In this document: in pieces, positions 2,100 through 48,699 of the stretch
Position numbering within the stretch: the stretch's first letter is position 1
Layout of the letters: the number at the start of each line of letters is the position of its first letter
Source of the DNA: Taenia hydatigena
Taxonomy: Eukaryota > Platyhelminthes > Cestoda > Cyclophyllidea > Taeniidae
Length of the DNA stretch: 64,000 nucleotides
Direction: 5' to 3'
NCBI GenBank assembly: GCA_036345935.2
Contig: JADWOT020000008.1
Location: 6,962,156 to 7,026,155 of the forward strand
Made by a program: the position numbers and the translations under genes
Notes under the pieces: generated by a model
Database searches by the model: none
Told to the model about the DNA's origin: nothing
Seen by the model: only the letters and a program-made list of their open reading frames with translations

Positions 2100-2759
2100 C
2101 TGTGTTAGCTCGCCTAATTAGCATTCAGTGGTGCCTCTCGAATCACCTTTGCAATGTGTGTCATCCACAAATCCGCGGCAAAACCTAATCTCCCGATGCT
2201 AGCTTACAGGCATGCGCTTTCTGGTGCGTTCTGCTGCTTTATCAGTGAGTGGGATCCGTTTCTGGAATGCAATTTTTCTGCTATTTTTAACAGCACGTCC
2301 GTGCTTGGCTCTTGGGTGCAATTTATTATGATTTCTTGGATTGCATTAAAATTGCTTCCAATAGACCAATGTTAATAACAATTTTAACAGCTAAAATCGT
2401 TACCAAAATTTGGTACAGTTTTTAAGAAGAAGTAGAAGTCTTGTAAATCTCAGTCACTTAGAATTATTTCTTCTAATCTCCATATTTAATTTAATAATGA
2501 ATTATCACCTTTAGATTGCCGATTTAAGAGCGCATTCAAACGGCCATTGTCTCCCTTTATTACGATAAATGTGCTTTTTAAAGAAGCAATGTTGCCTTCT
2601 GGCAGGTGACAATATTTTCGTAGCGTCCTGAGACTTCTCTGAAGACGGGAGAAGGTCTAGTACTTGGGCAGGGGATATGTAATTGACATTAGTCGAGTTT
2701 AAGGCTTTCGGCATGCTCTGAGGGACAATCCACCCTGTAAAGCGCCCCGTTTAACAAAA

Positions 2760-3340
2760 ACGAGTTTGGCAAACAATCAACGTGTCACATAACTCCTCTC
2801 CACCTTCGAGCGTCGTCTCCGGTGCTCTCCTTGTTCATCTTCCTGGGTCAGCCATCACAATGTAGCCGGTGCCACAGGGAAAACATTCACCGATCAACTG
2901 CGCTACTCATCAAAATTCCAAGCAATTGAGGATTTATCTGACTGCATCTTCACCCATCTCTACCGGAAGTTTCACTGGATCTGGAGTTTTGTTCTGTGCG
3001 GAAGCTGAATTCCGGGACGAGCAATTGTGCTGACCATCGCCCGTGTGCATTGTTAGTGATAATACCACTGGCTTAAAAGCAGAGTCAAATAACAAGGATT
3101 GAGGTTGGACATAAATCTGTTGAGTTTGGTTCCGCTTATATTCCTTGCCACATCGTTCTCACCTCGGAGCTGCCCAACTCTATCAAACTGGTCTCTCTCC
3201 AGCTTGGTCGACACCCTTATGCAGGCATGGTTAGCAGCTCCGCAACAAATTTCTCCAGATGGTTCACGAATAGTGCCGCTTCTGTTGTTGATAGCTCTTC
3301 TGTACACCACGAGGCTCGGGTAGTTGCCGAAGGTAGACAT
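2760..3340. repeat. Dispersed repeat family 3, degraded copy
   Basis: The stretch around 3015-3110 (a 'tgctgaccatcgcccgtg' region followed by 'cactggcttaaaagcag') resembles 44870-44950 and, after removing an inserted solo LTR, 33416-33500. The three copies share the order of several short blocks but are heavily diverged. No intact open reading frame remains. The class of element could not be identified by eye. Confidence 0.4.
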
Positions 3341-4474
3341 TCTTTACTCCTCTGCTAGAAGTCGTCACCATTTCTTCCATCTGTGGCATATGCGCTAAGG
3401 CTTACCACCGAGCAGTAGAAAACGGGGTAGATGTTCTTTAAAATTGGGCACAATTTCCGCCTCTACCAATGTGGATCTCCAAGTCTTTCTTGAAGACGAA
3501 AGGAGAATCGACACTCTGACACGTTATGCCTATTCTTTATGCAGTAGACTTTGTCGCTACTAATCAGTCCATCCGGCGAGGGTGCAATGGCGGAGCACCT
3601 AAGTCGCCCTTCACCGTGGGAGAGAGTTAGACAAACGATCAACGTATTGTATCGCATATTTTTAGTAGTTTTGTTGTTAATGGAACCAACTGACATTGAC
3701 TTCAATTGCTATTTTTGTGAAGATTTTTTTTCTAAATCATCCGCTTTTTTGCGTTATCGGTAAATGGTTTCAGCAACCTACTTTTCATCGGATTCACGAT
3801 TTTTTTTTTTTCATTTCAAATAAGAGATTTTACCTTCCTCCTCTCCTCTAGATGAATGTCAGTATCTCACTCCAACAAGGTGACCACCTCTAAGAGTTCA
3901 TCGTTGTTGTACGTTTTTTAAATCTTGTGTAGACCTACGCATTCCATTGTTCATCAACTATTTGGAGAGAAAGACTAGCTGATTGCTTATGGTGTCGCAT
4001 CTAAATCTCATGGTTGTGTGATGTGGCGAATGGATAGCTATGCATAATTCAAAGGCTGACTTTGTTTAACGAGAAAAGTATTTTTTGCTCCATTTTTTGC
4101 TTTTGTCTCGGTTGCAATTGCACTGGGCTAACATTTGTCCAAGCAAATTTTAGCATTTGAGAAGATAATCCGTGTGAGTACCTTTTCATCTGGTTATTAG
4201 ATCCAAATGATGCTTTTTATGGGCTGTCTCATTAGCAATAGCTGAGACAAGGTGGTCAGTACCTTCTAACTATTTTCATGTTTACCCAGATGTCAGTACA
4301 TCAATCTACCTGAGATTTAAGGCCTATTTCAAGGCAAAATATCACTCAAAGTATTAAGTCATTTCGCTTTACTGTGCTTCCCGTTTATTCATGCTTACAT
4401 AGTTCTTTTGCTGTTATTGAGTGGGTTGGTAAATGGAGTTGTTTTGTCGCCTACCTCTCGCGTTATTCTTACAG

Positions 4475-6844: not shown

Positions 6845-7700
6845 AATTGGTTGGTTGTTTATTCAACTCTCAGTTTTGGAAAGGGAGCCACCTGGACGGC
6901 ATACGGAGCGAATATTTTTTACCCCAGTATTGTCTTCTGTCGCCTTCATGGAAATCTCGGAGAGCTGTGTTGGTGGCAGCGGGTAACGAACCCCATCTTC
7001 AAGGGCAACTTCATTAATTTCTACCGCTGAGTGACATGTTTGCGGGACGGAAGAAGGGCTTATACAGCGGATGGGGTAAATAGTAACGACCGCTGAAGCC
7101 CGCCTTTAGCAGCAACCCCGGCCCCATAGTTTGCGAGAAAGCTATTAACAATTGAATTGACAGTAACCGTTAACAGCCAGGAAAAGCTCGTTACGGAGTT
7201 GTCTATAGTGACTGCATGGAGTCATTAAATATGCAAAAAATGTAATGCCTCCTCCACTCCTCTACCAGATGGATAGAACGCAAATGCATAGGACTGGACA
7301 GCTCTGAAGTGAGAATAATACGCCAAGGAGGGATTGGCCATGGGCCCACGGGGTGGTTGATTCAATCCTCTGTCCCCGAACCCAAGATGAAAATCCGGGT
7401 CCAGTAGGAATTGCCATGAGGAATGAGAGAGGCTGTGGCCAAATTCGATGTCTGGCATGTTTGACTAGTGAGTGTTTGTTTTTACAGCACCGATTGCGTG
7501 CATTGTGCTGGCTGACATGAGAGGTTTACCAAGGTGACACATCGGTTAGCTGTCTAACTCTCGGTTTTGTTAAGGGAGACGCTTTGGGTGCTCCCCCATC
7601 GTATCTAGAACCGGGTGGACTGGCCTCCGGGCCATGCCAGTAGCCTCGAGCCACTTTTACTATCCAAGCCGGCGTGATTACTATCGGCTGTACCTCACCA
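6845..7700 (+). mobile_element. Miniature LTR-type element, copy 1 (approximate limits)
   Basis: Two diverged direct repeats (about 6845-6968 and 7545-7695) flank about 570 bp of non-coding sequence. Immediately after the first repeat is TGGTGGCAGCGG (6970 onwards), which would pair with the 3' end of a tRNA-Leu whose acceptor arm ends CCGCTGCCACCA. Shared internal blocks occur in the same order as in the copies at 11.0, 48.7 and 54.0 kb: the 'gaaaagctcgttacgga' block near 7183, the 'ctgaagtgagaataa' block near 7302, and the 'tgtttttacagcaccgatt' block near 7477. The second repeat carries the conserved core GGCCTCCGGGCCATGCCAG. No gag or pol coding is present. The size fits a TRIM-like non-autonomous LTR retrotransposon. 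Confidence 0.55.
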
Positions 7701-8519
7701 TTAAAAAAGAAAAATAGCAATTTAGATCATCATTTAATTGTAAACCACATTTTCCTGGATAAGATTAAAAGCTAAATTAAAAGTAAACATCTGCAGAATC
7801 TCTTACAAAGAACAACTTGAGGCCATGGCATGTTTAAAAGCATGACCAAACATGCTCAAGGCTTTCAAAACCCAAAGAATTTTCTAAACAAGTGGAACCT
7901 CCTTAATTTCCAACTGACAAATCCATGCTGGTGCCATTTGGATAGTAAATTGAATTGGCCGTTTTCACTGATGCGTTGGGTACTGCACAACCTGTGAAAC
8001 AAGTTTGATCCCACTGGAACAGCCCAAGTTCTTCCCTTAAAATCGCGTTCACTAGACAGGTGGAAAGCCAGGCAGCTAAAGGTCACGTCTAGTTTAAAAT
8101 GAATTTCGGTATCCATAATCAATTTGAAGGAGGCAGCATATTAGAAATTCTTAACCGCCAATCGTCACTATCCCCGTCCCTGTTCAAAGAACAGCGAAAT
8201 ATTGTACGGATCACAATTTGATATTGTGGTACCTTTTCATACCATCCTACCGTAAATCAGATTACCAGAAAGTTGACCTGAGATTCAAATAAATTCATTG
8301 ACCGCTACAAGCCTCTGGGTAGGTTATGGTTTTTCAAAGACGAATGAAGAGGCTGACAGTCATCCAGTGACCCAAGCCACAAGTAATCGATGATCTAATG
8401 ACCTTAAGTTGATATGAAATGAGGATCCACCTTAAACGTGTTTGATGTTCTGCAGGATGAAAGAAGTTCAGACTCGAGGGTAGTGTGTGTGTGTGTGTGT
8501 GTGAATTTGTATAGGGAGC

Positions 8520-10504: not shown

Positions 10505-10738
<234 letters not shown>

Positions 10739-11024: not shown

Positions 11025-11935
11025 GCTGACTGAATGTCTAACTCTCGGTCTTGGTAAGGAGCCACTTAGGTGCATGCAATGGTACCAACGCCGAGTGAGC
11101 TCACCGCTTGCCTGTGTTGATAGACCCCAAACCAGACTGTATGTTGAACACGTTTGTCTTTCTCGAGCATTAGGTCTTACTGGGCTCTCAGAGAGGTCTT
11201 AGGGCGCAGTATCGGTGGCGACAGAAAGCGACCTCAGTCCATTCCTACTACTGAAAGATAAACCTTGGCGGTTGGAAGATTTGCATATGCTGTGGATGGA
11301 GAAATCGGTGACGGCCCCCAACAGAAGGACTGAAAATGACGTCTTTCAGTCCTGTTGTCTGCAGAAATGCTATTCACGCCTGAAGCGGAAAAGTAAACTC
11401 GCGATGCCTCTCCGTCAGCTGGAGAGTACTCAGAAGGATATGGCTGGGCAGCACTGAAGTGAGAATAAAGTGGCAGGGAGAAATAAACATGGGACCTTAC
11501 CCTCATTAAATTACTTTAAATCCCGTTCCCTGTTATCTGACACTACTTCTAGGCCCGTGTTTCAATGAGCAGGTGCAGACGCGTGTAATGACCAGTAAAT
11601 TCCTCGTCTCCAAATCTATTTTCCACACAGGAAGAAACTCCAGATTTTATGGAAGTGCCAAGACTAATGACGGTGCGATCAGGCGCAGCTGTCTTGTGAA
11701 TGTTTTTCTTTACAGCGCTGATTAATTTGCGATGCCCGACATAGGAGGCTAGCCAAGGGGAGTGCTGGAGACAACGCACAAAAGAGAAGGGACCATGTAA
11801 CGCGTTAAACTCTTGGCTTTAGTGGTCGTCACTTGAACTCTCACTGAGTGGGCTGACCTCGCAGCTACGCCATTTTAGCCTTAAGCCCTTCTGTCCAAAC
11901 GCCACATCTTTCGTCTTCAGAGAAGTCTCGCAGCA
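11025..11935 (+). mobile_element. Miniature LTR-type element, copy 2 (approximate limits)
   Basis: A first terminal repeat (about 11029-11205, with the 'taactctcggtcttggtaagg' block) is followed by a decayed primer-binding-like site (cggtggcgacag near 11213). The internal 'ctgaagtgagaataaagtggcaggga' block is at 11453, and the 'tgtttttctttacagcgctgatta' block is near 11700. A purine tract (acaaaagagaaggga, from 11779) precedes a second repeat starting TGTAACGCG at 11796. The repeat-to-repeat distance is about 765 bp. No coding capacity is seen in the interior. Confidence 0.55.
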
Positions 11936-12889
11936 AAAGTCATGCACTAGACACTTTCCCAAGGCTAATTTCCTACAAGTGGGCAGATTACCTCGACTCC
12001 GAGTGGGCACTTGAATATTGTTTTGGAATGAGTACCTCCTAACAGACGCTGTAAATGATGGTCAGAAGTGCCAACACAAACCACGACGTGAATGCGTGAA
12101 TGAAACCTGAGAGTCAATGTATCATAAATGATGAATAAGGACGCTTCCAACCCACACACCAGTTATTGACTGTTATGTAACAAAACCGTGACAACTTTAC
12201 CGTCATGTACGCTTAAACATTGGATAACAGGCATAAGAATACTTCGCCCAGCACAGTAATGTGAATTCTAACTCAGCAGAGCAAAATAATTCCAATTAAT
12301 TGCTCAAGTTGGCAGTTGAGTAACGTACGTTCCACACCCGCACGTCACCTCCGGCAATCGCTGGTACCCAAATTGAAAAAAAACATGGTCTGTACTTTCA
12401 CACTTTTATAGTCTCCTCTAGTGTAGTGTTAATTGGGAAGATTTTTATACCAGTAGTTGAAGGTCATCAATGAAGTCAACAATTTGCAACCTCATATACC
12501 TACCACGCTTCCAAGTTATTGGAAGCACTTCAGGCCTACTTTGTGTTACTGGAAAGTCCCCAAATCTCTGCTATTTCAATTATTTGGTAAATGTCATGGC
12601 ATAACTTCTACAGGTTGACATTAAGAGTTCCTTTCACCTCTCAGTTTCTGAACAAGTAGAATATGATTTGGACGAGAGGCTAACAAACTGTCTTATGGAG
12701 CCAAAAGATCCAAGGCGGTCTAATCTTCGAGAACAGCAAGTAGAGAACGAATATGTACAGATTCAAGAGGACATTACTTACGCACTGATGCATGACAAAG
12801 GACTGATGAGGAATAAAGAATGCGTCTCGGAAAGCATTGAGATTCTACGGAATGAGAGAACCTCACAAGAAGAAATAATGTGCGCGAAT

Positions 12890-20005: not shown

Positions 20006-22123
20006 TTAAGAGCAGGTCGATGTTTCGGAAGGAATGACTTCGCGCCAAAAGGAGAAGGATGAAAAGAGGGACATATCTACATCAGAGGTGGGAACATCAT
20101 GGAGAGTGGATGAGACCTCTTCATTCGCCTCTATTAGATCCGATTCGATTAATCTTGACGAAATACAAGGGAAGAGGTGGTCAGCGAGACTGACCATCTC
20201 GTCGAAAGATTTGCTGAGGCAGGGTAGGCGTTCGTTTCGTAGCTCGCCTCCCGAATTCACCGTATATATCCGACCTAATTCAAAACCAGATTCAATGTAA
20301 GCCTTCACATCATTGACACGATTCCCAAATGCAGCGTAGAAAGGATTGGAGTCTGGTCCAAACAATTCCTTCACCTCTTTAAGACACTCAATTTTGAAAA
20401 GCTCTGGTGTCCGAGCGATTACCTCGCGATGAAATGCATCAAGTAGAGATGTAGGTGACAGGAGAATCGGTCCACTTGGAAGGCGATATTTGCCACGTTG
20501 ACAAACCTGATCAATGTAACTCCGTGTCAAACTTGCCTCACCGATGGCTCTAGCTGATAGGTAAATAAATTTGTAGCCGTTATCGGCTGCTCTGGAATAC
20601 AATTCGGCAACTCCCTCGTGGCTCCAATCACGCCCCAGCACAGGGAGAACGTGGCCGAGAAGGTCTGAACGGGTTATGGTTCCGTCAACGTCGGAAACAA
20701 CCACTTTGTCGTCTGACCGCCAGAGATAAATCTTTGCCGTGCAACTGGCAGTGCCTTGGTACTTGGTAACTACCCGAAACTCAATGTCATTCACGCCTGG
20801 CCTTAAACTGAGACACTCCACCTCTCTTGAAGTGAGAGTGATTCTGCGTTGGAGGGCTTGGCACTCCTCAGCCAAGGTAACAGTAGTGGATTGAGAATGG
20901 ACATTTTGCATTTGCTGCTGAACCTCAGCCGTCGTTTTATTAACCTCCGCGCTCACAGTAGATTGCGGTCCAGAACAGCTAGTTCCCCACGTGAACCAGG
21001 CTCTGCGACGCGGTTGTTTCTTTGGCATAAAGGATTCTTCTAGCCGAAGAATGGAGCCATATGGTAAGTCAGCTTGGAAGCAAACGCGACTCAGTATTAA
21101 GGGAGCAACGGTATTCCAATTATAAAATTTTCCATTAAACAGAAGGACTAGATTTGGGTCGGCGATGATGCCAGCGGGATCCTTGGCAAACTCCTCAAAT
21201 GTCACCAAGTGAGCACAAAAGCGCTCGTGATCCATTTGACCATCAGCGGAAAGACCACCACATAAAGAGATTTTGAGTTCCAAGTTATTGAAGAAATCAA
21301 GTTTCAGACAAGAGGCGTTTTCTGAATCCGACTTATATCCGGCGTCAGTAGCCTTTTGACTCACGCTCATACGTTCAATGGGTTTTCCAACATACAAATA
21401 AGTTCGTTTAACGTTTTCATCAACCGATGATGCCACAAGATCTTCCAAGTATACTCCCTTTTGATTGGTTGTGTCGTTTTGAACAATAGGCCCCACATTT
21501 GAGCAGCTACCGAATCTTCTTGAATCCATATCGCCACAAACTTCAGCTATTTGAAGAGAACAACTTCCCATTTCACTATCCGACATATATGCAGGTGAGG
21601 TGGGAGGAGAGCCATGGTACTGAGCATCCTCTCCCAAATTTGGTTGGACCTCGCCGATAGACATATCCTTCCTTGACTTTTTGACCCGCCGACGGTGTTT
21701 ATGTGGATTTAAACTCTTACCGTTAACATCCTCAACTGAACGCGCGCGCAGGATAGGTTTGTCCGAATCATAAAACGCCTCTACGGACTGAGAATCCGAA
21801 TCGCTGTCAAAAAAGAGTGATTCGACATCGTCTACGAAATAGCCACTTCCAGCTCTGCCTAAACGCATGTGCAGATTTTCGGCTTGTTGCCCATTTATGT
21901 AAATCTCAACAAGCTTATCAGTCGCACTGATTGCACCCATTTTACCAAACCGGACATGGAACGGTCCGCACCTGAAAATGCCATTATTGTCTTCCACAAT
22001 GATTATGTCATTGGCCCCAGTAAGTGTAGCCGGATTGATTTCATTGTATACATTCTTGAACCCCGACCAAAGGCGGCCTAGAGAGCGTCTTTGATTGGTA
22101 AATAGGAAATGGGACCAAAACAT
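20006..22123 (-). CDS. LPIN: Lipin, phosphatidate phosphatase (single large exon)
   Basis: Lipins dephosphorylate phosphatidic acid to diacylglycerol with Mg2+ on ER membranes and can also act in the nucleus. The open frame spans 705 codons. Residues about 15-105 form the N-LIP domain (NEINPATLTGANDIII, CGPFHVRFGKMG). A basic nuclear-localisation-like cluster (HKHRRRVKKSRKD) is at about 141-153. The middle domain is marked by ISLCGGLS and YNWNTVAPLI. The catalytic HAD-type domain carries DVDGT at about 478-482, within KVVVSDVDGTITRSDLLGHV; LGHVL overlaps the LxxIL-type coactivator motif of vertebrate lipins. FYAAFGNRVNDV and the C-terminal FWRE motif are conserved. The length is shorter than human lipin (about 890) because the linkers are reduced. 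The N-terminus is uncertain: residues before about 14 align poorly, and AG sites near 22077-22090 could be an acceptor for a short 5' exon. ACBD6 follows 186 bp downstream and ZFPL1 is divergent upstream. Confidence 0.93.
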   Translation of the reverse strand: MFWSHFLFTNQRRSLGRLWSGFKNVYNEINPATLTGANDIIIVEDNNGIFRCGPFHVRFGKMGAISATDKLVEIYINGQQAENLHMRLGRAGSGYFVDDVESLFFDSDSDSQSVEAFYDSDKPILRARSVEDVNGKSLNPHKHRRRVKKSRKDMSIGEVQPNLGEDAQYHGSPPTSPAYMSDSEMGSCSLQIAEVCGDMDSRRFGSCSNVGPIVQNDTTNQKGVYLEDLVASSVDENVKRTYLYVGKPIERMSVSQKATDAGYKSDSENASCLKLDFFNNLELKISLCGGLSADGQMDHERFCAHLVTFEEFAKDPAGIIADPNLVLLFNGKFYNWNTVAPLILSRVCFQADLPYGSILRLEESFMPKKQPRRRAWFTWGTSCSGPQSTVSAEVNKTTAEVQQQMQNVHSQSTTVTLAEECQALQRRITLTSREVECLSLRPGVNDIEFRVVTKYQGTASCTAKIYLWRSDDKVVVSDVDGTITRSDLLGHVLPVLGRDWSHEGVAELYSRAADNGYKFIYLSARAIGEASLTRSYIDQVCQRGKYRLPSGPILLSPTSLLDAFHREVIARTPELFKIECLKEVKELFGPDSNPFYAAFGNRVNDVKAYIESGFELGRIYTVNSGGELRNERLPCLSKSFDEMVSLADHLFPCISSRLIESDLIEANEEVSSTLHDVPTSDVDMSLFSSFSFWREVIPSETSTCS

Positions 22124-22865
22124 ACAACGGTATCATCCAACCAGGGATAAGCTAGCTTGAATAGTTTTAAATACAATGACAGAATGCAAAAATGCTCAAT
22201 TAGTGCATTCAAATAATGGAGATGCACAGGAGATAACAAATGTCCTGAATAACAGGGAAACAAAAGCACTCGTTGTTGGTTAATGGTTATCATAAATATC
22301 TATTAGGTGTATCACAATGAATTGATTGGCTAGCAATAGTGCGAGCAACAAGGAAACATCTACTTAATGCACTAAAAAACTAGGTTTCGATTTGACATCA
22401 ATGCACTCGTTGCGACACTGTATATGACACCAATATAAAGCAATCGTCATTGACAGTGCTCCCACCTCTTATGGTAGATGCGGCTGCCGGTTCACCGATC
22501 CTTGGGTTGCGGTGCTTCTACTAAAAGTTATAGTTGCTTATCTTAAGCACTTGCAAGAGCTTTCGCAAGTTACATAGGTCTTAACAATTAAAGTTTTCAT
22601 GTCAGCGCCACTGTGGAAGTGTTATATTTATTTGACTTTCTTTAACAACCAAATATTTGAATAAAACTCCACTGCCATGTGCTTTTAAATTTACTATAGC
22701 TTTAAAGTAAATTTAAATTAAATTTTATAAGTTAAACTAATTAGATATTTAGGGTTGCCAATTTTTGCTGATTGTTTTAGGCAACCGACGCTTGGGGCGC
22801 TCCATTGGAGTCTGGGCAAGCCAGCGTAGAGGTGTTTTAGCTGTTTATTTGCTGTTTGTCTCTAG
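22124..22865. promoter_or_regulatory. Divergent promoter region between lipin and ZFPL1
   Basis: About 740 bp separates the lipin open frame (minus) from the ZFPL1 ATG (plus), so both promoters probably lie here. The half next to ZFPL1 is very AT-rich (about 22610-22770). No TATA box or named motif stands out. A short 5' coding exon of lipin could also be hidden in this interval. Confidence 0.4.
22852..22865 (+). promoter_or_regulatory. Candidate trans-splice acceptor of ZFPL1
   Basis: The pyrimidine-rich run 'ctgtttgtctctag' ends exactly at the ZFPL1 ATG. An acceptor with no 5' UTR left behind it fits spliced-leader addition directly at the start codon. Another AG acceptor-like site (gattgttttag) lies about 85 bp upstream. 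Confidence 0.45.
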
Positions 22866-26265: not shown

Positions 26266-29200
26266 TTAGAATGATAAAAAACTGCCTTTAGGTCCAGAAA
26301 TCATGCCGCCACGATTATCAATGAGTTTCTCATTCATTTCCATGATGCTGTTCACCTTGTCCGCCAGTTGGATAGCCAAATTTTGCAATCGAGATCGCTC
26401 ACCCTTGTGCATCGTGAGGAAGTCCGCAGGAACTTCTAGTGAGGCCTTGACAAAGAGAATTAAGCACTCGACTACTTCAGACAAAGCATTGATCGACACT
26501 AACGCTAAATCAACGATGGTACCCACTTAGGTTTGCATTAAGGAGGATTTATGTCATGTCTAACAAGAATAAGATGAAAGGATGAACCTACGGCAAGTTC
26601 CTGATTGATTATCATTTTACTGATGATGGAGTAGATTTGAGATCTGGGGAACTCAAAGTGTTCAGCTAGCCTGGAGAGGCTAACCGACTCGTGGACCGAG
26701 GAGTAAGTGAAAAGGTAGCACCTCAAGCACTCCTCCTTAATCTTCTCCTCCAGCATCTTCTTTACATTGTTTGGATCATAGAACAGGACCCAAATCTGCA
26801 CAAAACAATGTCATGAGAAAAATGGAGTGACTGAAATAAAGTTACTTATACCTTGGCATCCATTTTAGGGCTGAATATGTACTTTGTAGCATTGCGCCAG
26901 TTGCCAAACCGCATGGCTTTAGAAGCAGCGATTACGTGATCTCTCGGAGACTCGGGCGGACCAATCAAAGTAGCTCTGTCTTGAATCCTCAGGACAGTCG
27001 AGAAAGCCTTACTGAAGACACGGGCCCGGGTATCGTCTTGTGAAGCTGAAAAGCGAATGGACATTAATGGATTGTGTTCCAGGTCGCCAAGCAGTTGACT
27101 TACAAACAAGGAACCCACCGGCAAGAATAGGGACCTCTTGCAACATAGCACAGATAAGAAAAACTGTCTCAATGAGTTCCGTGTTGATGTGCATATGATA
27201 GGGCATCTGGAGAGCCTTTTCGCGTTTCTCCTCTTCCGGAGTGCGCTCGTAGCGCTGGCCCTGAGCCAACAGCTCACGGATTTTGCTGGAACCGGTCAAA
27301 TCGGAGAGAGCGGAGTGCGCATCCTTGATGTGACCTTGCCGGAACGCACATAAACCCATTTGCACCATGGCACGGTTGTAAAGAATCTGCAATGGCACGG
27401 GTTTGCCTCAGTTACAACACTTGCTTAAGCTCGAAAATGAGTAAAGCGAAGCATACCATAGTGGAATGGTCGGCATGATCAATGGTGGCCTGGAGGTTAG
27501 ACATAAGCATCAGATCACGCGCCTTGTACCAGTGATCGAATAGAGCGAGAAAGTAGATGTGACAGAGAATGGCGCGTGTGCGAAGACGATCCGTCTTATC
27601 GTTCTTGTAGATGTAGTGACAGAGCCTTTCCACCACCTCATAGCCCGGATTCAATCCTGCAGCCTCGAGACCCTCGGACTCCACCTTCTTTCCCCACTCA
27701 AAATCAAACTAATGGAGGAATGAACAAGGCATGTAGCTTAACGCTATGAATGACCTTAAAAAGACAGCTACAATGGCATGAGCAAGCCAGAAAACGAAAT
27801 ATAGGGCTTAGCACAGACTATGGGTATGGGGAAGAATTGCGTTTGCTCACTTTGTAATACAAATGTTCGACTTTGCGTAGGTAAGCCACACACAAAGCCT
27901 CGGAAGGGGCCTTGGTCCGTTCGAGGTACTCAATGAGCAAGTCGATTAACTCGCACACTCTTGGCTCATCTCGAAGTCTGAAAACAACAAACAAAATATT
28001 TAAAAAGGATGTTAAGTCACTTCCGGAGCCTGCAATTCATCTACCAACAAAATCAAACATTTAAACGCGTAAACACATCAAGGCGATGACTAGGCCATCT
28101 TGGGTTGGCACGGCAGGGGGAGCAGCATACCTTTCATCATACTCCATTTCATGACCATTGGCATTTTGCAGAATCTTGAAATACTCATCGTCTAGTCGAC
28201 CAACACAGCCCAAAATTGAGCCACGGATTCGATAGGGACGTTCCTGAAAAGTGCGCAAAACAGAATAGAATAGAGTAAAATACGCTACTAATATCTGAAA
28301 CAATGAAGTATTAACAATATGGGGGGTATAGAAAACTAGTGCAACTGTCATTCACTATTTAACACGAAGCAGAATTTCTCACACATTGAAATTTCATCAG
28401 GCTTGTCTTAATTGAGGACAGAATAATCCTTCACACATTACAATTTTAATTAACCGAAAACTCAGAATGCAAATGAAACATCCGCGTACCAAAACGGATT
28501 CGGTCTCCTCAGTTATGGATTCCGATATCTCAAGATCTTTCGGGTTGTTTTTCAGAATCTCAAAAAGTTTTCTGAGCTGTTCAATGGTCCTAAAATGAAA
28601 GTAAAGCAGGCGATGATAATGTGGCATGAATACCAAAACGTAGCGCCCAACAAACCTTTGAAACTTCGCAATTGGCATGAACGCAGGATGCCTTGACTCG
28701 TAGTCGAAGAGTACGGTAATTAAGGATAAGATAGCTTTCACGTTAATCCCAACACCAAGACGCAATTCCTCTGAAAGAAATTTTGATAGGAAAACATTAC
28801 TAAATAAATATGGAGGATCACATTTACGGACATATACAAAGCAAACTAACCGGCTTTCTGGCAAACTTGATCAAGAAGACAAATTTGTTCAGCGATGCTA
28901 GAGGTACGCTTGCCACGGTTGGCAATGATCTCGGCAACTTTTCTAATTACCAACTCCTGAGTGATTTCAACACCCTTCTCAAAGGCCTGCACCGTAGGCT
29001 CGAGTGCAGAACCGTCTCCCGGAGCAACAACACGCCATTCATCACCACTTTCCTCACTGCTAAGCTTCACTACCTGTTTAACAGGCTTCGGTTTGGGAGC
29101 CTTCTTCTTAGTCTCCTCCTTAAGTGTTAAAAGCCTCAATTAAAACAATATATATATATATATGCACCCATTGGCCAAGTTACATTGGATAGCCAAAACG

Positions 29201-30003
29201 TTACTTACCTTCTTGGGCTTTCCTTCAACTTTCAAGAAGTAAGTGTAAGGGTGCTCCATGTCAAGTTCAGGACCACTATCACTTGACTCGGATTCATCAG
29301 AAGTTCGGAAGTAATCATCATCATCCTCATCCTCATCCGAGGACTCATTTGAGCCTTTGGACACAGGCGCTCCCTGCAGGGGGAAAAAAATCCACAATAA
29401 GCATAGAGTAAGTAATAAAGGGAAACGTAACCATGGATAACGCACCCCAGGCTTGGCAATTACTTCCTCTTCCTCCGCCGATTCCTCTCCTTCTTCAATT
29501 TCTTCCTCAGCCTCTTCCTCATATAACTCGGGATTTTCACGGTACTTCTTAATTTGTTCCTCAAAATCCTTGTTGTATTTACGAATTTTTTGTTTGAGAA
29601 CAGTGAGCGATTTGGCCCCTACTTTGCTGAGTGTCTTTTTTTGACTCCACGATTCGTTTACAAAATCCTCCATTTGGGCAAGGACACGAATGTAAAACTT
29701 CGGATAGATGTCAACTTCGTTCATTTTATGAGCTTTTTCGTAGACCTTCACCAACTCGTCGAAGTCTGTCTCGACCTTGGACATATCCTTAATTTTCTTA
29801 TGATTGTTAAGATTCCTCAAAATGCTTTGTATTTCCTCGTGTCGTTTGTCCTTAGCGCTACGCACGACACGTTTCTCGTCTTCACTGTCACTTTGGACGG
29901 GCCGCATAAAGCGTTTCACGGGGACCTTTCCCGAAATTTCATCACTTGATTCATCATCACTTGAACTGTAAGCAGCGGTATACAAGCGCGACGTCATTGC
30001 CAT
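26266..30003 (-). CDS. EIF3C: Eukaryotic translation initiation factor 3 subunit C, 12 exons
   Basis: A core scaffold subunit of eIF3, which binds the 40S ribosome and recruits the pre-initiation complex. Exons (minus): 30003-29446, 29373-29209, 29118-28851, 28770-28656, 28589-28490, 28243-28131, 27977-27851, 27708-27457, 27386-27119, 27045-26852, 26795-26592 and 26445-26266. All junctions are GT/AG with matching phase. The product is about 847 residues (human 913). Diagnostic segments are [41 protein letters not shown], an acidic Ser/Glu/Asp-rich linker, [89 protein letters not shown] and the PCI domain ([29 protein letters not shown]). The C-terminus is short and lacks the Gly/Arg-rich tail of the human protein. 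The start is placed at MAMTSR; a second ATG follows two codons later. Confidence 0.95.
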
Positions 30004-30025
30004 TTTGTCTACAATGGGGATGGTA
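30004..30025 (-). promoter_or_regulatory. Candidate trans-splice acceptor of eIF3c
   Basis: On the minus strand 'acctaccatccccattgtag' is followed by only five bases (acaaa) before the ATG. The extremely short leader parallels the other genes of the window and fits spliced-leader addition. Cis-splicing from an untranslated exon is also possible. Confidence 0.4.
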
Positions 30026-31236
30026 GGTGTAATAGACAAGATACAAAGTGCTGACAAAGTAATAGTTAACCAGTAAAATGGTTCTACATAACTTGCAATA
30101 TAGAGGCAAAGTTTATTTTAATAAAGTTCGAGAAGGTCTGGGAGCCGAGCGTCAATAATCAGAACACCAGCTGTCTACTCAACAAAAGTGAACAGTGTGG
30201 ATAATTAAAGGTCCAGGTGATTATAATAATTGGCACCGTTTCCAAAAAAAGCATTAGCGAACGCTGTGTAATCAAACGAGGTAGATAGACATGGCCATAG
30301 GATTGAAGAGCTACGGACCAGAAGTAATGTAATCACACGTGGCTGTCGATTTTAACCGACCAATCGAAAAGAGCAAAATGAAAAAGTGCCGAGAGCACCC
30401 GCACTTTGCTAGATAAATGGACCTTAAAATCACAACGGCAGACCGATTGAATAAAAGTGCAAAGCGTGCCAGCGCCGACCACCGATTTGCTAATTCATAA
30501 GTGAGCATCTCTTAAAACAAAATTCAACCAGAAAATGCAAAATTATCTCCACACAGAGACTGCTATAAAAATTAATCAATTTAAAATACTTTCAAGGCGT
30601 TAGCAGCACACCAATCAATTTAAAAGGAGCTATTACTCTAAAAAGTTGTTTCTCTAACATAGACATGGGAAATTAGCTCAAACCCCAGACATAATCTAGA
30701 TTGCCTTTATTAGAATAAAAATAATGCAACGCCTCTGAAGCGTTCTTTAAAATCGAACAACAACAGCCCATATTTGGCCATCCTAACTCGCACCGATGTA
30801 AAGTTAATAACTATGGGCGATTCGAAAACAAACAATATTGGATTTACTACTGTAATTTTAGCGTTGTCCGATGTGCCCTATTGTTTTGCGACTCCCGTGA
30901 AGGCAAAGCGAAATGCAAGACCTGGACGGCGTAAACATATTTGGCGAACAGAAGGGATTAGCGTTGACTATTCCTTCCTTTTCTCCTCTTCCCTTCTTTC
31001 ACCCTTTCCATGAAAGATTGGGTATTTCTAGTCATCTTTATTATAGTGCAGAACAGGTGTGCGGTAACAGGGCTAAAGTATCCACGACTAAGGAGCTTCA
31101 GGCTCGGAAGAACTACCACGTGCGCCAACGACCAGGTTGAAATAGTTCTCCCGTTTCCCGCCTACAAAACACATTTGAAGGGCATAAGCCTTACAATAAG
31201 GACCAAGTTTAAAGTTAATATGGACGTCAGTGTGCT

Positions 31237-31420
31237 TGTAGCGTCTCGAGGCTCCCTCGAAGGCTAAAGAGGGCGAAATACTAAGGTAGAATATATACAT
31301 TCAACGTACAGGGAAATAGGCTGTCGGCATGGCCCGGAAGCCAGCCTACGCAGCTTGGACAATACGGCCACAACTGTAACCCTGATCAAAACCAGTAGTA
31401 CAAACAAACAAGGCATTACA
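31237..31420 (-). mobile_element. Solo LTR of the miniature LTR-type family
   Basis: In LTR orientation (minus strand) it starts TGTAATGCC and ends GACGCTACA, with TG...CA ends. The flanks are GTGCT on the left and GTGCC on the right, so four of five bases of a presumed target-site duplication agree. The core GGCTTCCGGGCCATGCC is present. Length is 184 bp. Confidence 0.65.
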
Positions 31421-32544
31421 GTGCCTTTTGTAATATCTTGTTTACTTTTCGACTTAAAGTTTTGATTGCTATCTCTTAGATGAATATTTTGACTTTGCAA
31501 GGTTGGCCGGCCTCCGGGCCATGCCATCAGCCCTAGTCCCTTTCTGCTCAGGTATCATATCTTCCCATGTCCTCAGTTAAGCTTCGAGACTAAGGGTTGG
31601 ACAAAGAGCAAACCCACTAATGTGCATTTAGAAACTCGAAAGCTTGCAGCAAAATCCTTGCCTAATCTGCGCTCACTTCGGTCAGCTTATGTATAATTGC
31701 ATCTTGAAAATTATTGTCAAGATGTAAGCGTAGCTATGAATACAAAACTTACCGCTTGTGGACACTTACGCCATTTGTCTGGGCTTACGCTGTTCATATC
31801 CTACAGCGAGACTATCTTACACCACTTGCTAGCTGTAAAAAATACTGGTTCTAAGTAAATCCGCCCAACAAAAGGCAAGATTTTAAAGAAATTATAAAAC
31901 CGCTGTTTCTAACCTGCGCCACTTTGTGTTTTTTTACTTGGAGTTGCTCGGACCTTCATTTAATGTTTCATCCGTCAAGTAGATTAGCGTAGATGCAAAT
32001 AACGCCTCAACATAGCTGTTATAAATAGTCCTAAAAAGACGTATTTAGGTCACTTAAATCTACCGCCGCTGGATTCTTAAAACCTTCCTGCAGAACACGA
32101 AATTTCGAGTAATCCTAATAGGCAGATGTCAACTCTAGCAATTATGTCGGGACCGGTCACACATTTGGCCAACATAATCAGCAGAAGAAGAAGCGCATAT
32201 CCAGCGAACGAGGGAATCACTTACTCTCCATACCAAAAGTATTAAAAATCAATTCGTCGTCGGGGTTTCATTACCACACATGCATAAAGCTCTCGAAGAT
32301 GCGAATGGATGCGAAACCTTGTTTTCACCAAACTGTGTTAAATCCTCTCCTATCCATGCCGATTTTGCATGAACTGGCTATAGATGCGCGTCCACGAACC
32401 TACTTATCAAACAGAATTAAACCCGCAATTTTGACGAGTTGCTAAGAAAGATCAGTGACATTGCGATCAAGTGTCGCCTCAGCTGCATTGAAATTTGATG
32501 ACTGGCACGATTGTTGCGTGGGTGTTTTCGTTCGGCGCTGATTA

Positions 32545-32765
32545 CCTTATGGTAGCTGACAAGGGAGGTTGGCCGAGGTGAGTGCCAAGGATGCCGCTTA
32601 AAAGAAAAGGAAGACTGTGCGATACACTTTTGTCTGTTGTACCTTGGCTATTTTGGCAATCCTCCGAACCGCGCCAGTAGCGCTGTACCCTTTCTGTAAG
32701 CAAATTTATGCATTCTGCACGCGTATTATGTCTTTTATGCCTTCTGAGAGGTCTTGATGCGATTC
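32545..32765 (+). mobile_element. 3' end of a miniature LTR-type element
   Basis: The shared internal block ('gttttcgttcggcgctgattacctta' region) is followed by a purine tract (about 32598-32614, aaaagaaaaggaaga) and an LTR-like start TGTGCGATACAC at 32616. The LTR decays after about 150 bp. The order matches the 3' part of copies 1-4. The 5' part of the element is not recognisable. Confidence 0.45.
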
Positions 32766-33230
32766 AGCATGCGTACGGAAGCCGTTATCGTGACTCGAAG
32801 TGAGTGCAGACTTCCTACCCTCTCCATAACATGGTATCTGGGGTTCCCAGGTCTTCTATACATTAGTGATATGTGTGCTCCATCAAACTGCTCTCTAGTG
32901 CCTCGAGACTTCTCTGAAGACAAAAGAAGTCATAATTCCAAGGCAGATTACATATAGTCAACAAACAGGCAGCTTGGCTGCCAAAGCAGAGTATTACATA
33001 GTCCCTCTCTCCTTTAGGGCGTCATCCTTGGCTTTTTCCTTGGTAAGCTGCCGCATCATTCATCAAAATGTAATTGGTATCGAAAAAAAACACCCACGAT
33101 CCAAGCGTTATCGTCATCAAATTTCTATGCATTTGAGGGGGTACTTGACCGATAAGTCGCTGATCCCTCTTGACAATTTTGCTGAATCTGAAGTCTCTTC
33201 CGGTTCGAGAACTGAATTTGAAGATGGCAG

Positions 33231-33415
33231 TGTAGTGCTTTATCTGTTTGTGCTGCCGATTTCTGTCAAGGTCACAGAGGTGGCCATATTGCCCAAGCTG
33301 CGTGGGCTGGCCTCCGGGCCATGCCAGCAGTATATTTCCCTCTGTCCGGTGAATATATATATTCTACCCTGCCAGTTTGCCTTCTTTTGCCTTAAGGGAG
33401 CCTCGGGACGCTACA
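33231..33415 (+). mobile_element. Solo LTR with perfect 5-bp target-site duplication
   Basis: The sequence runs from TGTAGTGCT to GACGCTACA (185 bp) and is flanked on both sides by GGCAG (33226-33230 and 33416-33420). The internal core TGGCCTCCGGGCCATGCCAG is intact. It interrupts a family 3 repeat. The duplication shows integrase-type insertion followed by LTR-LTR recombination. Confidence 0.8.
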
Positions 33416-33708
33416 GGCAGATTCTGTTGACCATCACGCATATCTACAGCTTGATGTTGAAACACTGGTCTAATAGTGAATTTGTGAAAAAGGGTTATAG
33501 AATTCAACACATTTTCTTAGGAATGAGGCTTAATGTATGCTAATATTTTTGACATCTTTGTGCGGGTGTGGTAAAGGCAATCCAAAGCAAAACTTATCTA
33601 AATAGTCCACGGCTAGTACTGCTTCCACTATAAATAGCTTTTATGCAGAACCTCGGAAAGGGGTGGATAGCAAGGGTAGACGGCATCCTCAGCTCTTCTA
33701 TTACGGGG

Positions 33709-33894
33709 TGTAGTACTTTGTTTGTTGGAACTACCGGTTTCGGTCAAGGACACTGAGGTGGCCGTATTGCTCTAGCTGCGTAGGTTGGCCTCTGGGCCAT
33801 GCCAGCAGCTTATTTCTCTCCACCTGTTGAATATACATATTCCAACCTAGCATTCTGCCTTCTTTTGCCTTCGAGGGAGCCTCGGGACGCTACA
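33709..33894 (+). mobile_element. Solo LTR with GGGG target-site duplication
   Basis: It starts TGTAGTACTTTG and ends GACGCTACA (186 bp). GGGG precedes it (33705-33708) and GGGGG follows it. It is closely related to the solo LTRs at 33231 and 61562 (opposite orientation). The core is GGCCTCTGGGCCATGCCAG. Confidence 0.75.
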
Positions 33895-34160
33895 GGGGGC
33901 ACCAGCATTTCCCTCATCTGTAGCATATGTACTGTCTTCGCACCGCTAAAGCTTGTCAAAAACAATAGAATCTGCGGTGAAAGTTCTTTTAAAGTTAAGT
34001 TTACTTTCCAACACTCCTAGTGCAGCTTCCCAAGATTACTTTAAATAAAGAAGTTATAATGCTTATGCAGAACTTATGTGTGTATGTGTTCAGCATTGAA
34101 AAGAAATTTATACTGCTAGCATGGGCAAAGGCCAGCCCACCTTTCAAAGGCATTAAAGCC

Positions 34161-34356
34161 TGTAGCGTGCCGAGACTCCCCTAAATGCAAAATAAGGCAA
34201 AAATACCAGGGCAGAATGCGTATATATTTAATCGAGAGAGGGCGAAGGGAATGGAGCAACTGCCACAGCCCGGAGGCCAGCTTACGCGGCCAGAGCAATA
34301 TGGCTACATAAGTGACCAGGAGCGATGCCGGTGGACTTATAAAACAGAGCGTTACA
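34161..34356 (-). mobile_element. Solo LTR, older copy
   Basis: In minus orientation it begins TGTAACGC and ends GGCACGCTACA. The core AGCCCGGAGGCCAGC is still readable on the plus strand. The flanks (AAGCC and GGGCC) agree only in part, as expected of an older insertion. Confidence 0.6.
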
Positions 34357-38800: not shown

Positions 38801-41444
38801 ATAAAGCAGTGAAATTCGGCAACATTTGACCACTTTGGTTAATGCCTAGGCGGCAGCACGGTTCCGATACCCGTGGTTCATGGTGTTCTAGTGAAAGTGA
38901 TAAAGATTTCACTCTCCTAGCCAGTCTGCTTGACGTGTTGGTGATGTAAATCACTCAAGGTTAGGTCACTTTTTAACCTATGAGAAGTATCTTGAAGGAA
39001 CTGGTTTGCCAATATGATTCGTCTGGATGAAACTTTTTTAGCTAATATAATTGTTATTCATTTCACCCTCCTGTTCTACCGATTCCTACTAAGGTGTTGT
39101 GCTGTTAAAGCTCTCTCGTATTCGATGAGGCCCACTGCAATTTCATATTGGAAACTAGTGGACTATATGCCAATTAAAATTTTTTTTTCTTGGTGAGAGA
39201 AGTGGAGGAGCCTGAATTTAATGAGACATTTTTTTAGCAAAATGAATTTGAAGCACCCTCTTCGAATAATTCTCACTACGCAAAGGAATTTGTTGGGAAA
39301 ATATGAGGAATGGCAGTGAGGCATTTTAATTGAGACGTCGCTTTGATGGAGTGCGCTTCTTGTCACTCAACAGTCATTGGGAGCGCAATTATTTTGTTAA
39401 TTATAGCTTTGAAAAGCGATTGATATTTCTTCGCTAATTGGTTGATTTGATTCATTTGAATGCAAATAACTTCCAAGTAAGTAGCATACTCTGTACTTGA
39501 TGAGGAGTTTGGGGATTTGTTGTCGGTTCATGCATTGCCAAGCCAATCGTGGGGCCCACAATGCCATGTAAGGGATCACCCACGTCAGGTTTTAACTGTC
39601 TCCATCTCTTCATTGGGCACTGAAAGGTTGAAATTCACCTTGAGATTTTATAACATTGTTTTCTGCTTTTTTTGGATTTCGACAATAGTTCATTTGAATA
39701 AGCTTCATTTAGTAGTAGTTCGGTATCGTAGGATTTTTTTACCATCTTTCTAATCACATTTTATCAGAACTAGAATTTAATCTGAACGTAATGTATTAAT
39801 TAAATAACTCACTAGTACTTCAAAATCAGTAAAGCAGCTTGTGTTTCTTGATGTATTTAATATTTTCTCAACTTATTGTCAATACGCCTGATCCGAAAGA
39901 AGACCAGTATTTACTTGCAGACATATTTTTAGCAAATTTTTAATGCACACTTACTCAGCCTTCGAAAGCTTTTCATTAGAATATATGGACTTCACCAAGC
40001 GGCAGTACTCCTTGTCATTAGTTGTACTCTCAAATAATCCAAAGCATGTGACTTGTGATTATGCAAAGTTAAGACGCATTCGGAAAGAGCGAAAAGATTG
40101 AATTCTTCAAGTCGAAGTCTAATTAATAAAAAATAAACCCTTTTTGCAAACAGATAGTTGAATTTTTCCTTATTAAAATGAATTTGATAACGCATCGCAT
40201 CTGAAATTCGGCTTCAAGTTGCGCTTTTACTGATGTCAAACCACTTGACATCTTCAGGCATTAACAATATTGAGTGAAGAAAATGCATTAATTGTTTTAC
40301 ACCCCTCCTGCAGGTTTTGGATGACGAGGGCTCTTGGTGGTGCCTACGAGCCCCCTCCGGTCGCACGGGGCACGTCCCAAAGACGCATCTTGAGATTATT
40401 CCAAATCCCACTAGGGAGGCCGAACGCTTCAACGACCAACCCATTGATCCTATTGTTGTGAAGGTACCCGTAATAGTCAAGGCCTCGGTTCAACATCAAG
40501 AAGTTGAAGAGAAGGTTAAGTCTAGTGCTCCGAAAAAGCCGGCCACACCACCACCCGTCGTACCGCCACCAGAGCCAACTCCACCACCAAAAAAGCCCGA
40601 ATCGCCGGCTCCTGCACAGAGCGAACAGAAAGCCGCTCCTGTGCCGCCCCCTCAGCCCCTCTTCCCTCCTCCAATGAGCTACCATGATAGACCACCCTAC
40701 CATACGGTGGTGAAGGAGGTCATTCGGGAAGTGCCGCCTTATCGCCACTATCGTCGTGCAAAGTCGAGGCACCAGAGCAAACGGAACCTATCTCCAGTGT
40801 ACTCCGACGGATCGAGCTCCTCTTGCACTTCCAAGACCAGTTCATCTTCAGGCGTAGCCTCGTGGATCTCCGACGGTGGGTATGAGAGAACGATTCAGCG
40901 TCAGCCACCTCCCTCTCGACCTCGACGTCCGAAACCACAATCACACCAACAACGCTCTTCTCATCGTTCCGTGCCTCAGCCTCTGAAATCTCCGGAACCG
41001 TCGACACAGTCACACCACTCGGGACAATGCTGTCATAGCGGAGCTAGAAATTCAAACTGTCGGTACAGGAGCGTGTGTTGCTACTCGTCAGCTCGTTCAC
41101 GAGCCCGGTCTTCAATAACGGATATGTCACACCGAGGTTCGAGTAAAAAGGAACAATCACAGCAGGCCCAACAACAACTGCCACAACAACAGCCGCAACA
41201 ACCAATGATAATTCTGCTTGAAGCACCAAAACAGGAAGCCCCACAGCCGGCTCAAGTGGTCGAGGAGCAGTCACTGGATGATTACTACGATCCTAACAAC
41301 CAGCCACAAATCTCAATTGTGCTTCCCCCCAACGCACAGGTCACACCCCAGCTGTCAGCCTACACCCCACTGCAACAGCCGCAGTACATGCAAGCGCCCA
41401 TGTACTACAACTGGTCGCCACAATACTACCAGGGCTATGCGTGA
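35850..41444 (+). CDS. SH3-domain protein resembling EPS8, three 3' exons (5' end missing)
   Basis: Exons 35850-35931, 38385-38460 and 40314-41444 join in phase. The first ends with PELEEFFESVHERMK and carries no recognised domain. The SH3 domain is split across exons 2 and 3: AIAQKSYRARNDKELSVQPG, then VLDDEGSWWCLRAPSGRTGH and VPKTHLEII. The closest match I can recall is the EPS8 SH3 (ARN-x-x-ELSV and LDD-x-x-x-WW), a scaffold linking receptor signalling to actin. Exon 3 then encodes about 340 residues of low complexity: poly-Pro segments (PPPVVPPPEPTPPPKKPESP), a basic Ser/Arg-rich stretch, Gln-rich runs and a Tyr-rich end (QYMQAPMYYNWSPQYYQGYA). The C-terminal SAM-like effector region of vertebrate EPS8 is absent. 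The first exon is the weakest call. Upstream exons, including any PTB domain, were not found. The identification as SH3 is firm; EPS8 kinship is an inference. Confidence 0.65.
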
Positions 41445-44400
41445 TGGAATGAGAATAGGGATTCCCTGACTTGATGGTCACTTTGCGAATTAACTTATCT
41501 CCTTTTTTTGTCTTCCTAACAATCTTAAGCAATTAATTTTTTTCTCAAGAAGTAACATGGTGGCACTTAGGGCTGAGATAACGTGTTACCAACCTGTGGG
41601 AAGTAATTTTTGACTTCAGTGGATGTAATTAGGTTGATGGAGTAAAACATCCTTATTTTCTTCAACGCTTTTATAGTTTATTCAACTGTGCTTTAGATTA
41701 TCACCTGGTATCTCCATTGGCTTCCTTGCGAAGAGGCATCTAAGTTAGATTTGCACCTCTGTCTCCTTTTATACTTACTGAGCAACCTTACTGCTGCCAC
41801 AGTAGTAACGTAGAAAGGTTTAAAGAATCTGGGTCCAGGTCCAGTCGAGCAAAAGTAAAGGTCAACAGCTAGAGACTAAGCCCTTCTAGGTAATTGGATT
41901 TTTTGAGGTCCTGTATATCACAGTTCCTGGCAGTGAAGCTGTGGAAAAGAGCTCTTGTAAGGTAGACATGTTTGGATCCACCTAGCAGCAAAATCACCGG
42001 TAAGACTTGGGTGTCGGGTTGCAAAGTCATCAAATTGAATTGCAAATGTATTTGAAATTTCATAAATTATTAGTGATTTGAGGTTTCAAGAAATGGCCTA
42101 TACTAAGTTAATATTGAAGTGTAGAGCTGGCTTAATACAATTTTGCTAAAAATACTTTGCAAAAATGTCACTTTGATGGGTAGCTAGTGGATAAATTTTG
42201 GTATTGGTACACGTATTTATTACTGCTCATTATAATCTTTCAATGACAGTGAAGGAGGAATGCAGTGCTCATCACTGAGTCTTCCTTGCAGACCAAAGGG
42301 CTCATAAACTCCGGGTTGAAAATGCGATTTCGGCATAGAAATTGACTTGAAGCTGCTCGCATGGCCTGGTCATCAGACCGCTCACCGGAGCTGCAATGAC
42401 GGAGCTCTAAGTGGCCCATTATCAAACTTGAGAGTTAATCGAAAGATCAAAGCAGTACAGAGATCCTTTTCCTTTTTGAAGGTCGTTCTCACTGGCCATC
42501 CATCACAACATTGTCAGCTTCGTAAAGAAGTTCCCACTAGCCACTCATTAAATTTGTGTGCAACAAATATGCTTAATTACAGCGTTACGCATCATTCTTA
42601 AAAATTCTATCGGACCTGAAGTTTTGCCCTGTATGACTACATCGGTAGTTGTGGGAACATTAGCATAAAAGCATAATGTGGTGGGAGTGAGGTTTCATAC
42701 CCAGTTCTCATTACTACCTTGCTCTAGCTTCGGCGCTGTCCAACCATACCTATCCCGATCTTATTCAGCTAGTAGAGAGATGAAGAGGGTATCACGTGTG
42801 CACTTAATTGGCATCTTCAAAAAGTTTTCGCAGCTAACTTGTTTTCATAAATTACGGCTAGCGTTGCCTTGATTGCTAATAGCATTACTGCAGACCGAGG
42901 GACTGCGGCAGTTGCCGAAGGTGGACACCACTTTCGACCCTTCCCCTAAGGGTCATCATAGATTTATTCATCCGCTGTACATGTCTTTCATCCATCAAGT
43001 TAAGGTTTAGCAGACAAGAATTGAAATCAATTTGACTGTTCTTTAGAAACGATTTTGTCTTCCATTGCTAGTAACGTAACACTCAAATTTCTTCTGGGAG
43101 GCATATTGGCATAATACTAGGGTGGAATGAGTATTGTCGACATAAGTAAGACCTGGGGAGAGGGCTATCTCCGTGGTTCGGAGGCCATACAGCCCATAGG
43201 AAGCACAGATACGGAAGCCTTAGGGAACCGCGAAAACAAAGCGAAAAGTTGAAGTTGAAGTTGTTGATGAGGGACGATTTATAAGTTGTTTATAAATGTA
43301 GATTGCTTAAGGTAAAACGGACTATTTTTCATATTTAACCATGGATATTCAAGCCTAACTAACACAGAGGATCCTGGACTGCGTCGCGTACGATATACAA
43401 GCGGAAAGTTCAATAAATTCCCACAGATGGGATAATTTCAATCAACCTTTTTGATTGCAAAATTGAAAGTTAAATTACATGCTTTAGCTTCTCTATGAAT
43501 GCGAATTCTACAATGAATGCACTAAAGGAGTGGCGAAGGAACTATTAAAAGCGCCTCAAAAAAGCATAACTCTCAGATCCACTCTCCAATTCAAACTACT
43601 GCGGGCCCAAAAAGCGGTGCATTAATTGCCCCATAGATAGCTATAAATGAGGCATTTTGTTAGGTGTGAAAGAGATGTCATTAAAAGGTGGTGAGATGAA
43701 TAACTTCGCCGGTGGGGTGGTTTGACACTCGTGTGCACACAGCGCATGCATTGATGGAGACGATTTCACTTACATCAAGAATACGAGATTGATTGCAACA
43801 AGGAATCGTGTTTTGTCATAGGATTAAATTCGAGGCAAAGTAATGGCAACAATTGGTCGATAATTCGCATTATCATTATTTTTACTGTCTTGAGTATTTG
43901 TGTAGTCCACCCACCAACATGACATCTCCTATGCTTATAAAAGCCTCAAACAGTAAATTCGCTAGCATATTTCTGAGAGAGTCATCATTAGCATTCAAAA
44001 TTACTTTATTTGTGCTGATAGTAAAAATTCGTTATAAATCAGCGAATAGTATAGTTCATAGAAAGAGAAGCATGAAGGGTTTTGAACTGACAGTTCAAGT
44101 GTAGCAGAAAATCACAAACAAAGTGTCAAATGGTTAATTTATCAATTAGTGCAAATTGGTCTTTTATGTTACATTAAGTGCCATAATAAAGGTAATGCAT
44201 TTATTGATGACATGTGCCTCAGTCTCGGTTGGAGGGGATTGCACACTTGAGGCAGAAGATGAAGCAATGGAGGCACGAACTATTACCGTGTGGTGCACAT
44301 CCACTCAAGTACGCAACGCCCCATCAAGTTACATTCGACTCTTAATTGTGGTGGCACAGCTCATGCTTAAAGCTTTTGATCTGATCCTCCTTGCATCTCA

Positions 44401-44477
44401 AATTCATTTTTTAAATAATTAACCGAGCAAAAGGTGTTACCTACTTAGCCTTGATTTGCGTGCAAGGTCATTTTGTG

Positions 44478-44650
44478 TTGCCTCGAGACTTCCTTGAAGA
44501 CAAACGAAGGCAAAATACTCAGACAGAATGTATACATTCGACACACTGTGAAAATTGGGGCTGCTGGCATGGCTTAGCAAAAAATACAATGAAAGAGCAC
44601 TTAAGTGACCTACAAACCAAAACCGGGAGTTAAGCAAACAGCCAAGATAC
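44478..44650 (-). repeat. Diverged LTR-like repeat copy
   Basis: The plus-strand order 'cctcgagacttccttgaagaca', 'tgtatacattcgaca', 'gctgctggcatggc' and 'accgggagttaagcaaacagcca' matches, in the same order, the copies at 45365-45540 and 61952-62140. Central GC-rich core sequence is partly deleted. It belongs to an older subfamily ending CTCGAGGCA rather than GGACGCTACA. Confidence 0.5.
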
Positions 44651-44689
44651 TACATACTGTCGTACCGACACTCCCCTTGATCTACCTCC

Positions 44690-48588: not shown

Positions 48589-48699
48589 CAGTTCTTCAGA
48601 TATTTCCCGAGTCGTCTAGAAGTACTTGATAGGACAATAGTAGGTACTTGTGCCATATTCCTGATCAACTTGTTTAAAACTTATGCTGAATACTGCAAT

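Follow-up and report, generated by a model that had tools for sequence, protein, structure and literature searches.

The repeats dispersed through the window, that is, the whole 64,000-nucleotide stretch of Taenia hydatigena DNA that was analysed, are almost certainly ta-TRIM, the taeniid non-autonomous miniature LTR retrotransposon, in old and decayed copies within a Taenia genome. ta-TRIM is already known, and the element itself is ordinary. At least two age layers of it lie at this one Taenia locus. A preliminary description had recognised a TRIM-like non-autonomous LTR family, a reading that stands on the LTR-like repeats, the tRNA-Leu-type primer site, the non-coding interior and the purine tracts of some copies. 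It stated that no described flatworm equivalent was known to its author, but one exists: Koziol et al. (2015, PMC4558846) reported ta-TRIM from both Echinococcus and Taenia, and it agrees with the window copies in primer site, purine tract, sizes and sequence.

Four loci had been reported at the outset (copies B, C, E and F), and blastn between loci (best E 4.6e-12) together with an alignment that runs in order over the unit unites them in a single family. The number four was too low, as seven two-LTR copies (A to F and J, of which A, D and J had been missed), two broken copies (K and G) and eight solo LTRs were found, the last comprising the old H, I and M and the young y1-y5 (Table 1). LTR and interior profiles were trained on copies A-F and y1-y5, whose own matches are thus built in; independent matches came from J, K, G, H, I and M, all outside the training set. 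The 57 matches at E below 1e-3 merge into 35 stretches that together cover 9,363 bases (14.6% of the window); the reversed window, searched with the same profiles, gave zero matches at E below 1. Weaker LTR fragments lie near 10.0 and 46.3 kb (E 1e-4 to 5e-4) and 30.9 kb (E 0.004). Once stretches under 1 kb apart are merged, there are 9 loci per 64 kb, a density that is not representative of the genome, the window having been picked for its noticed repeats. One cluster of 3.1 kb (31237-34356) holds both broken old copies together with four of the young solo LTRs, two of which are nested in an old copy.

Table 1. Copies and solo LTRs of the ta-TRIM family, in positions of the window
Feature	Position	Strand	LTRs	Interior	Primer site, purine tract, flanks and remarks
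Two-LTR copy A	2620-3640	-	3640-3470 and 2778-2620		purine tract three bases ahead of 3' LTR
Two-LTR copy B	6853-7714	+	5' LTR 6853-6967, internally deleted; 3' LTR 7544-7714, 3' end decayed	6971-7546	primer site TGGTGGCAGCGG from 6971
Two-LTR copy C	11029-11937	+	5' LTR 11029-11211; 3' LTR 11802-11937	11214-11789	primer site degenerate; purine tract three bases ahead of 3' LTR
Two-LTR copy D	44474-45547	-	45547-45363 and 44643-44474; pair 61% identical over 189 columns		
Two-LTR copy E	48695-49630 (refined start 48705)	+	5' LTR to 48881; 3' LTR 49470-49630	48883-49471	primer site TGGTGACAGCG at 48883
Two-LTR copy F	54043-54935	+	5' LTR 54043-54167 (deleted); 3' LTR 54765-54935	54178-54756	primer site 54170; purine tract, then 3' LTR
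Two-LTR copy J	42275-43253	-		43063-42495, E 9.7e-57	outside profile training
Broken copy K	32895-34158	-			old; interrupted by younger solo LTRs 33231-33415 and 33709-33894
Broken copy G	31486-32764	+	5' LTR remnant 31486-31588; 3' LTR 32655-32764	3' part 32304-32608	decayed
Young solo LTR y1	33231-33415	+	TGTA..TACA		flanks GGCAG/GGCAG
Young solo LTR y2	33709-33894	+			flanks CGGGG/GGGGG
Young solo LTR y3	34161-34356	-			flanks GGCCC/GGCTT (3/5)
Young solo LTR y4	31237-31420	-			flanks GGCAC/AGCAC
Young solo LTR y5	61562-61753	-			flanks GGTA/GGTA at 4 bp; 3/5 at 5 bp
Old solo LTR H	55648-55821	-			
Old solo LTR I	61952-62137	-			
Old solo LTR M	46507-46668	+			E 2.2e-9

In the alignment the unit has the order first repeat, a boundary at which CTACA is followed by TTGGTGGCAGCGG, interior, purine tract (in some copies) and second repeat, and the primer site does sit at the repeat boundary, where the preliminary description had placed it. 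At this boundary the majority of copies A-F reads CTACA, then TTGG, then TGGCAGCGG. In the published element nine bases complementary to tRNA-Leu lie four bases past the 5' LTR (PMC4558846), the position that the nine bases TGGCAGCGG occupy here after TTGG; the complementarity is taken from that paper. The motif TGGTGGCAGCG occurs without mismatch at 6971 and 54170 and with a single one at 48883; the copy near 11025 has only the degenerate form TCGGTGGCGACAG. As a motif alone it is weak (3 matches vs a shuffle mean of 0.68, with 3 reached by 5 of 100 shuffles); its weight lies in its fixed position at the repeat boundary, not in mere occurrence. Counting the CCA tail of the mature tRNA, the site would comprise twelve bases, TGGTGGCAGCGG, beginning one base past the LTR, and the matching 3' end is presumably carried by the tRNA-Leu with anticodon AAG. 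A search for tRNA genes in the window, run with bacterial settings, found none.

The young LTRs are 184-196 bp long and have the ends TGTA..TACA, and the ends of the old LTRs are decayed. That the unit is framed by a pair of LTRs was confirmed, with weak points: the LTRs within a copy are barely alike, at 46-63% identity, and 4 of the nine two-LTR loci (C, F, J and K) have a pair score no higher than the top one among 200 shuffles. Solo LTRs that match both ends of another copy establish that the two ends are one repeat, I matching D5 (4e-11) and D3 (3e-9), and H matching E5 (3e-9 and 2e-5) and E3 (2e-7). The purine tract reported for copies C and F is visible by eye, as is one in copy A (3640-2620); among the seven two-LTR copies these three have it, three bases off the 3' LTR in A and C and adjacent to it in F, and in the other four it is decayed or absent.

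The interior, 569-714 bp long in the seven copies, is non-coding, as first described: there is no codon-phase signal (the observed value is reached by 2420 of 5000 shuffles), and 61 of 76 alignment gaps are not multiples of three. A frame of 122 aa (45095-45463, minus strand) spans LTR, primer site and interior of copy D. A relic gag, suggested by this open frame across copy D, was rejected, since the frame has no match in Pfam and the seven copies lack a codon-phase signal, as was a structured RNA, with no Rfam match at the gathering threshold. An autonomous element within the window was likewise discarded, the reverse transcriptase, integrase and protease families being absent from 35 of the 39 window ORFs of at least 110 aa; the four left out of the scan are frames of TG/CA repeats near 10.4-10.9 kb. 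A (TG)n microsatellite of about 114 units lies at 10508-10735, some 300 bases upstream of copy C.

Comparison with described elements places the family closely. According to PMC4558846, ta-TRIM has LTRs of about 198 bp with TG..CA ends, about 590 bp between them, a purine tract of 15 bases that stops three bases short of the 3' LTR, and many solo LTRs; its target duplications measure 4-5 bp, each of the ten counted in Taenia being 5 bp long, and E. multilocularis holds 142 two-LTR copies and 1,939 loci. The window copies are alike in LTR length (for the young LTRs), TG..CA ends, primer-site distance, non-coding interior, solo LTRs and primer sequences. The purine tract is common to both, but in the window it occurs in three of the seven two-LTR copies only; the Taenia-type 5-bp duplication is shared, but at young solo LTRs only; and the two-LTR copies of the window are denser and older, their pairs being 46-63% identical vs a published divergence of 2.2-27%. 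The lennie and Saci2-like Ty3/gypsy elements (PMC4558846, PMC12471100), of which lennie has the same tRNA-Leu site and LTR start as ta-TRIM, encode pol and have duplications mostly of 4 bp, and none was seen in the window among the 35 of 39 ORFs scanned; lennie is grouped with Saci2, and the Spirometra elements have 4-bp duplications (PMC12471100). PbTRIM of ants and biv-TRIM of bivalves are the same kind of element, with two terminal repeats, a short interior and no autonomy, but from other hosts, and are likened here by description, not sequence. Animal TRIMs are listed, and the taeniid one cited, in PMC6934838, and PMC8016263 and PMC6880638 mention the 2015 work; a literature search on 'ta-TRIM' together with 'Taenia' found nothing beyond PMC4558846.

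Target duplications are evident in one layer of the family. The young LTRs start with TGTA and end with TACA, and therefore their boundaries are fixed independently of the flanks. At 5 bp the flanks of y1-y5 match at 19 of 25 positions (p 1.3e-7), a value reached by 0 of 20,000 random placements; for a 4-bp length 11 of 20 positions match (p 0.004) and for a 6-bp length 9 of 30 (p 0.33). The duplication is perfect at y1, and y3 and y5 have 3/5 only. The younger solo LTRs thus have 5-bp duplications, and none is evident at the old two-LTR copies, whose flanks were judged by eye. Two of the young LTRs interrupt copy K, in which the profile continues across y1 (positions 477 and 476 at its edges) and across y2 (121 and 117). 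When y1 and one duplication are excised, hits of 82.8 and 13.7 bits become a single hit of 115.8, and eight shifted cuts give at most 82.8; excising y2 turns hits of 29.1 and 4.1 bits into a single one of 43.4, the shifted-cut control having been made for y1 alone. Copy K was thus already in place when y1 and y2 inserted into it.

The two layers differ in age. The LTR pairs of the nine two-LTR loci are 46-63% identical in alignment vs about 50% between different copies, and the young LTRs form a separate group, 72-89% identical among themselves. Published ta-TRIMs with intact LTRs diverge by 2.2-27% between LTRs, and introns of E. multilocularis and T. solium by 30% (PMC4558846). The divergence of the LTR pairs in the window exceeds both values, which suggests, identities being rough at such distance, that the old copies were inserted before the Taenia/Echinococcus split. 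The two-LTR copies in the window look dead. Loci of the family are about 8 times as dense in the window as published for E. multilocularis (1,939 loci, with 114.9 Mb assumed, the genome size of E. granulosus given in PMC12471100), in a comparison of differing methods and of a window chosen for its repeats.

Identity in sequence with ta-TRIM was judged from published primers, not from full-length published sequences. Against the majority sequence of the window copies, six of the eight published E. multilocularis primers each fit better than any of 300 shuffles. For the in situ probe primers, one at either end of the interior, the fit is 18/18 (WMISH F) and 20/24 (WMISH R), and the old-LTR majority is matched by U5a (23/25), locus 2 (25/27) and locus 8 (21/25), which overlap in U5 and are not independent. 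The two layers fit these primers differently: U5a matches the young LTR at 17/25 vs 23/25 for the old majority, and U5b the young LTR at 20/23 vs 18/23 for the old. The better U5a fit of the old LTRs agrees with an age before the split, and U5b goes the opposite way. Searched against the raw window, U5b finds five sites of 4 mismatches or fewer, compared with none in 100 shuffles, and U5a has seven sites with at most 6 mismatches, more than in shuffles (mean 0.12, largest 2). The top U5a site, with 5 mismatches, is attained by a shuffle (best 4), and the best WMISH F sites, with 3 mismatches, are equalled or beaten by shuffles (best 2).

The lower U5a fit of the young LTRs, and their standing as a group of their own, would also be expected if y1-y5 were not ta-TRIM at all but the LTRs of its autonomous Taenia partner, sharing the LTR ends. 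All five are solo, so that no interior is visible, and published ta-TRIM and lennie have the first eight LTR bases in common (PMC4558846). Such an origin is nevertheless unlikely, for these LTRs fit the U5b primer of ta-TRIM, are of ta-TRIM length and have a 5-bp duplication, against mostly 4 bp in lennie (PMC4558846) and 4 bp in the Saci2 elements of Spirometra (PMC12471100). Very improbable is an unrelated, undescribed TRIM family with the primer site alone in common with ta-TRIM. The window copies are indeed very divergent, and the locus 21 and locus 60 primers, both locus-specific and the remaining two of the eight, have no fit to the window majority, but the primer matches run through U5, primer site and purine-tract region, each in the published part of the element.

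A tandem satellite or segmental duplication in place of a retrotransposon is scarcely credible even with several copies within 64 kb, as the copies are scattered over both strands at distances of kilobases, the solo LTRs have 5-bp duplications, excision of the nested y1 joins the hits of copy K, and LTR identity between the seven copies is equal for 5'-5' (0.496) and 5'-3' (0.494) comparisons, with 0.510 for 3'-3'. Positions, strands and nested insertion led to the satellite being rejected; the equal identities also dispose of a duplication of already-diverged ends. Tandem Repeats Finder covers periods up to 500 only and has no bearing on a unit of ta-TRIM size.

The repeats lie among genes of a taeniid. 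Lipin (20006-22132, minus strand), the one gene tested, has T. solium nearest at 91%, followed by T. crassiceps (87%), Hydatigera taeniaeformis (80%) and Echinococcus granulosus (78%), which on this one gene places the window in a Taenia species. Further coding exons belong to eIF3 subunit 8 (eIF-3c_N), in two pieces on the minus strand (27009-27407 and 29140-30117). A frame at 40278-41444 (plus strand) has an SH3 match slightly below Pfam's cut-off, and an open frame of 466 aa at 47105-48505 (plus strand) has zero Pfam matches.

Mobility of the family can be pictured by analogy with the published ta-TRIM, whose LTR promoters yield non-coding RNA in stem cells and for which mobilisation in trans by an autonomous LTR element has been proposed, lennie being the candidate partner in Echinococcus (PMC4558846). 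Transcription from the LTR promoter would give a non-coding RNA in stem cells, tRNA-Leu would prime its reverse transcription, and the enzymes of an autonomous LTR element would act in trans; recombination between the two LTRs would then leave solo LTRs. A different partner is likely in Taenia because the duplications there are of 5 bp (PMC4558846).

What the window adds to the known element is its stratigraphy, in at least two age layers, and the observation that old copies can be very dense. Repeats of T. hydatigena are reported as 14.5% LTR elements and 46.7% unclassified (PMC8384839). It is conceivable, though the balance tips slightly against it, that Taenia genomes have a dense ancestral layer of ta-TRIM, inserted before the Taenia/Echinococcus split and mostly missed earlier, which makes up a sizeable share of the 'unknown' repeats and lies beneath a younger layer specific to Taenia, whose mobilising partner makes target duplications of 5 bp. 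If the window is typical, the published counts for E. multilocularis (142 two-LTR copies, 1,939 loci; PMC4558846) would leave out the oldest layer, and the origin of the ta-TRIM family could be dated from insertions that Taenia and Echinococcus share at identical sites.
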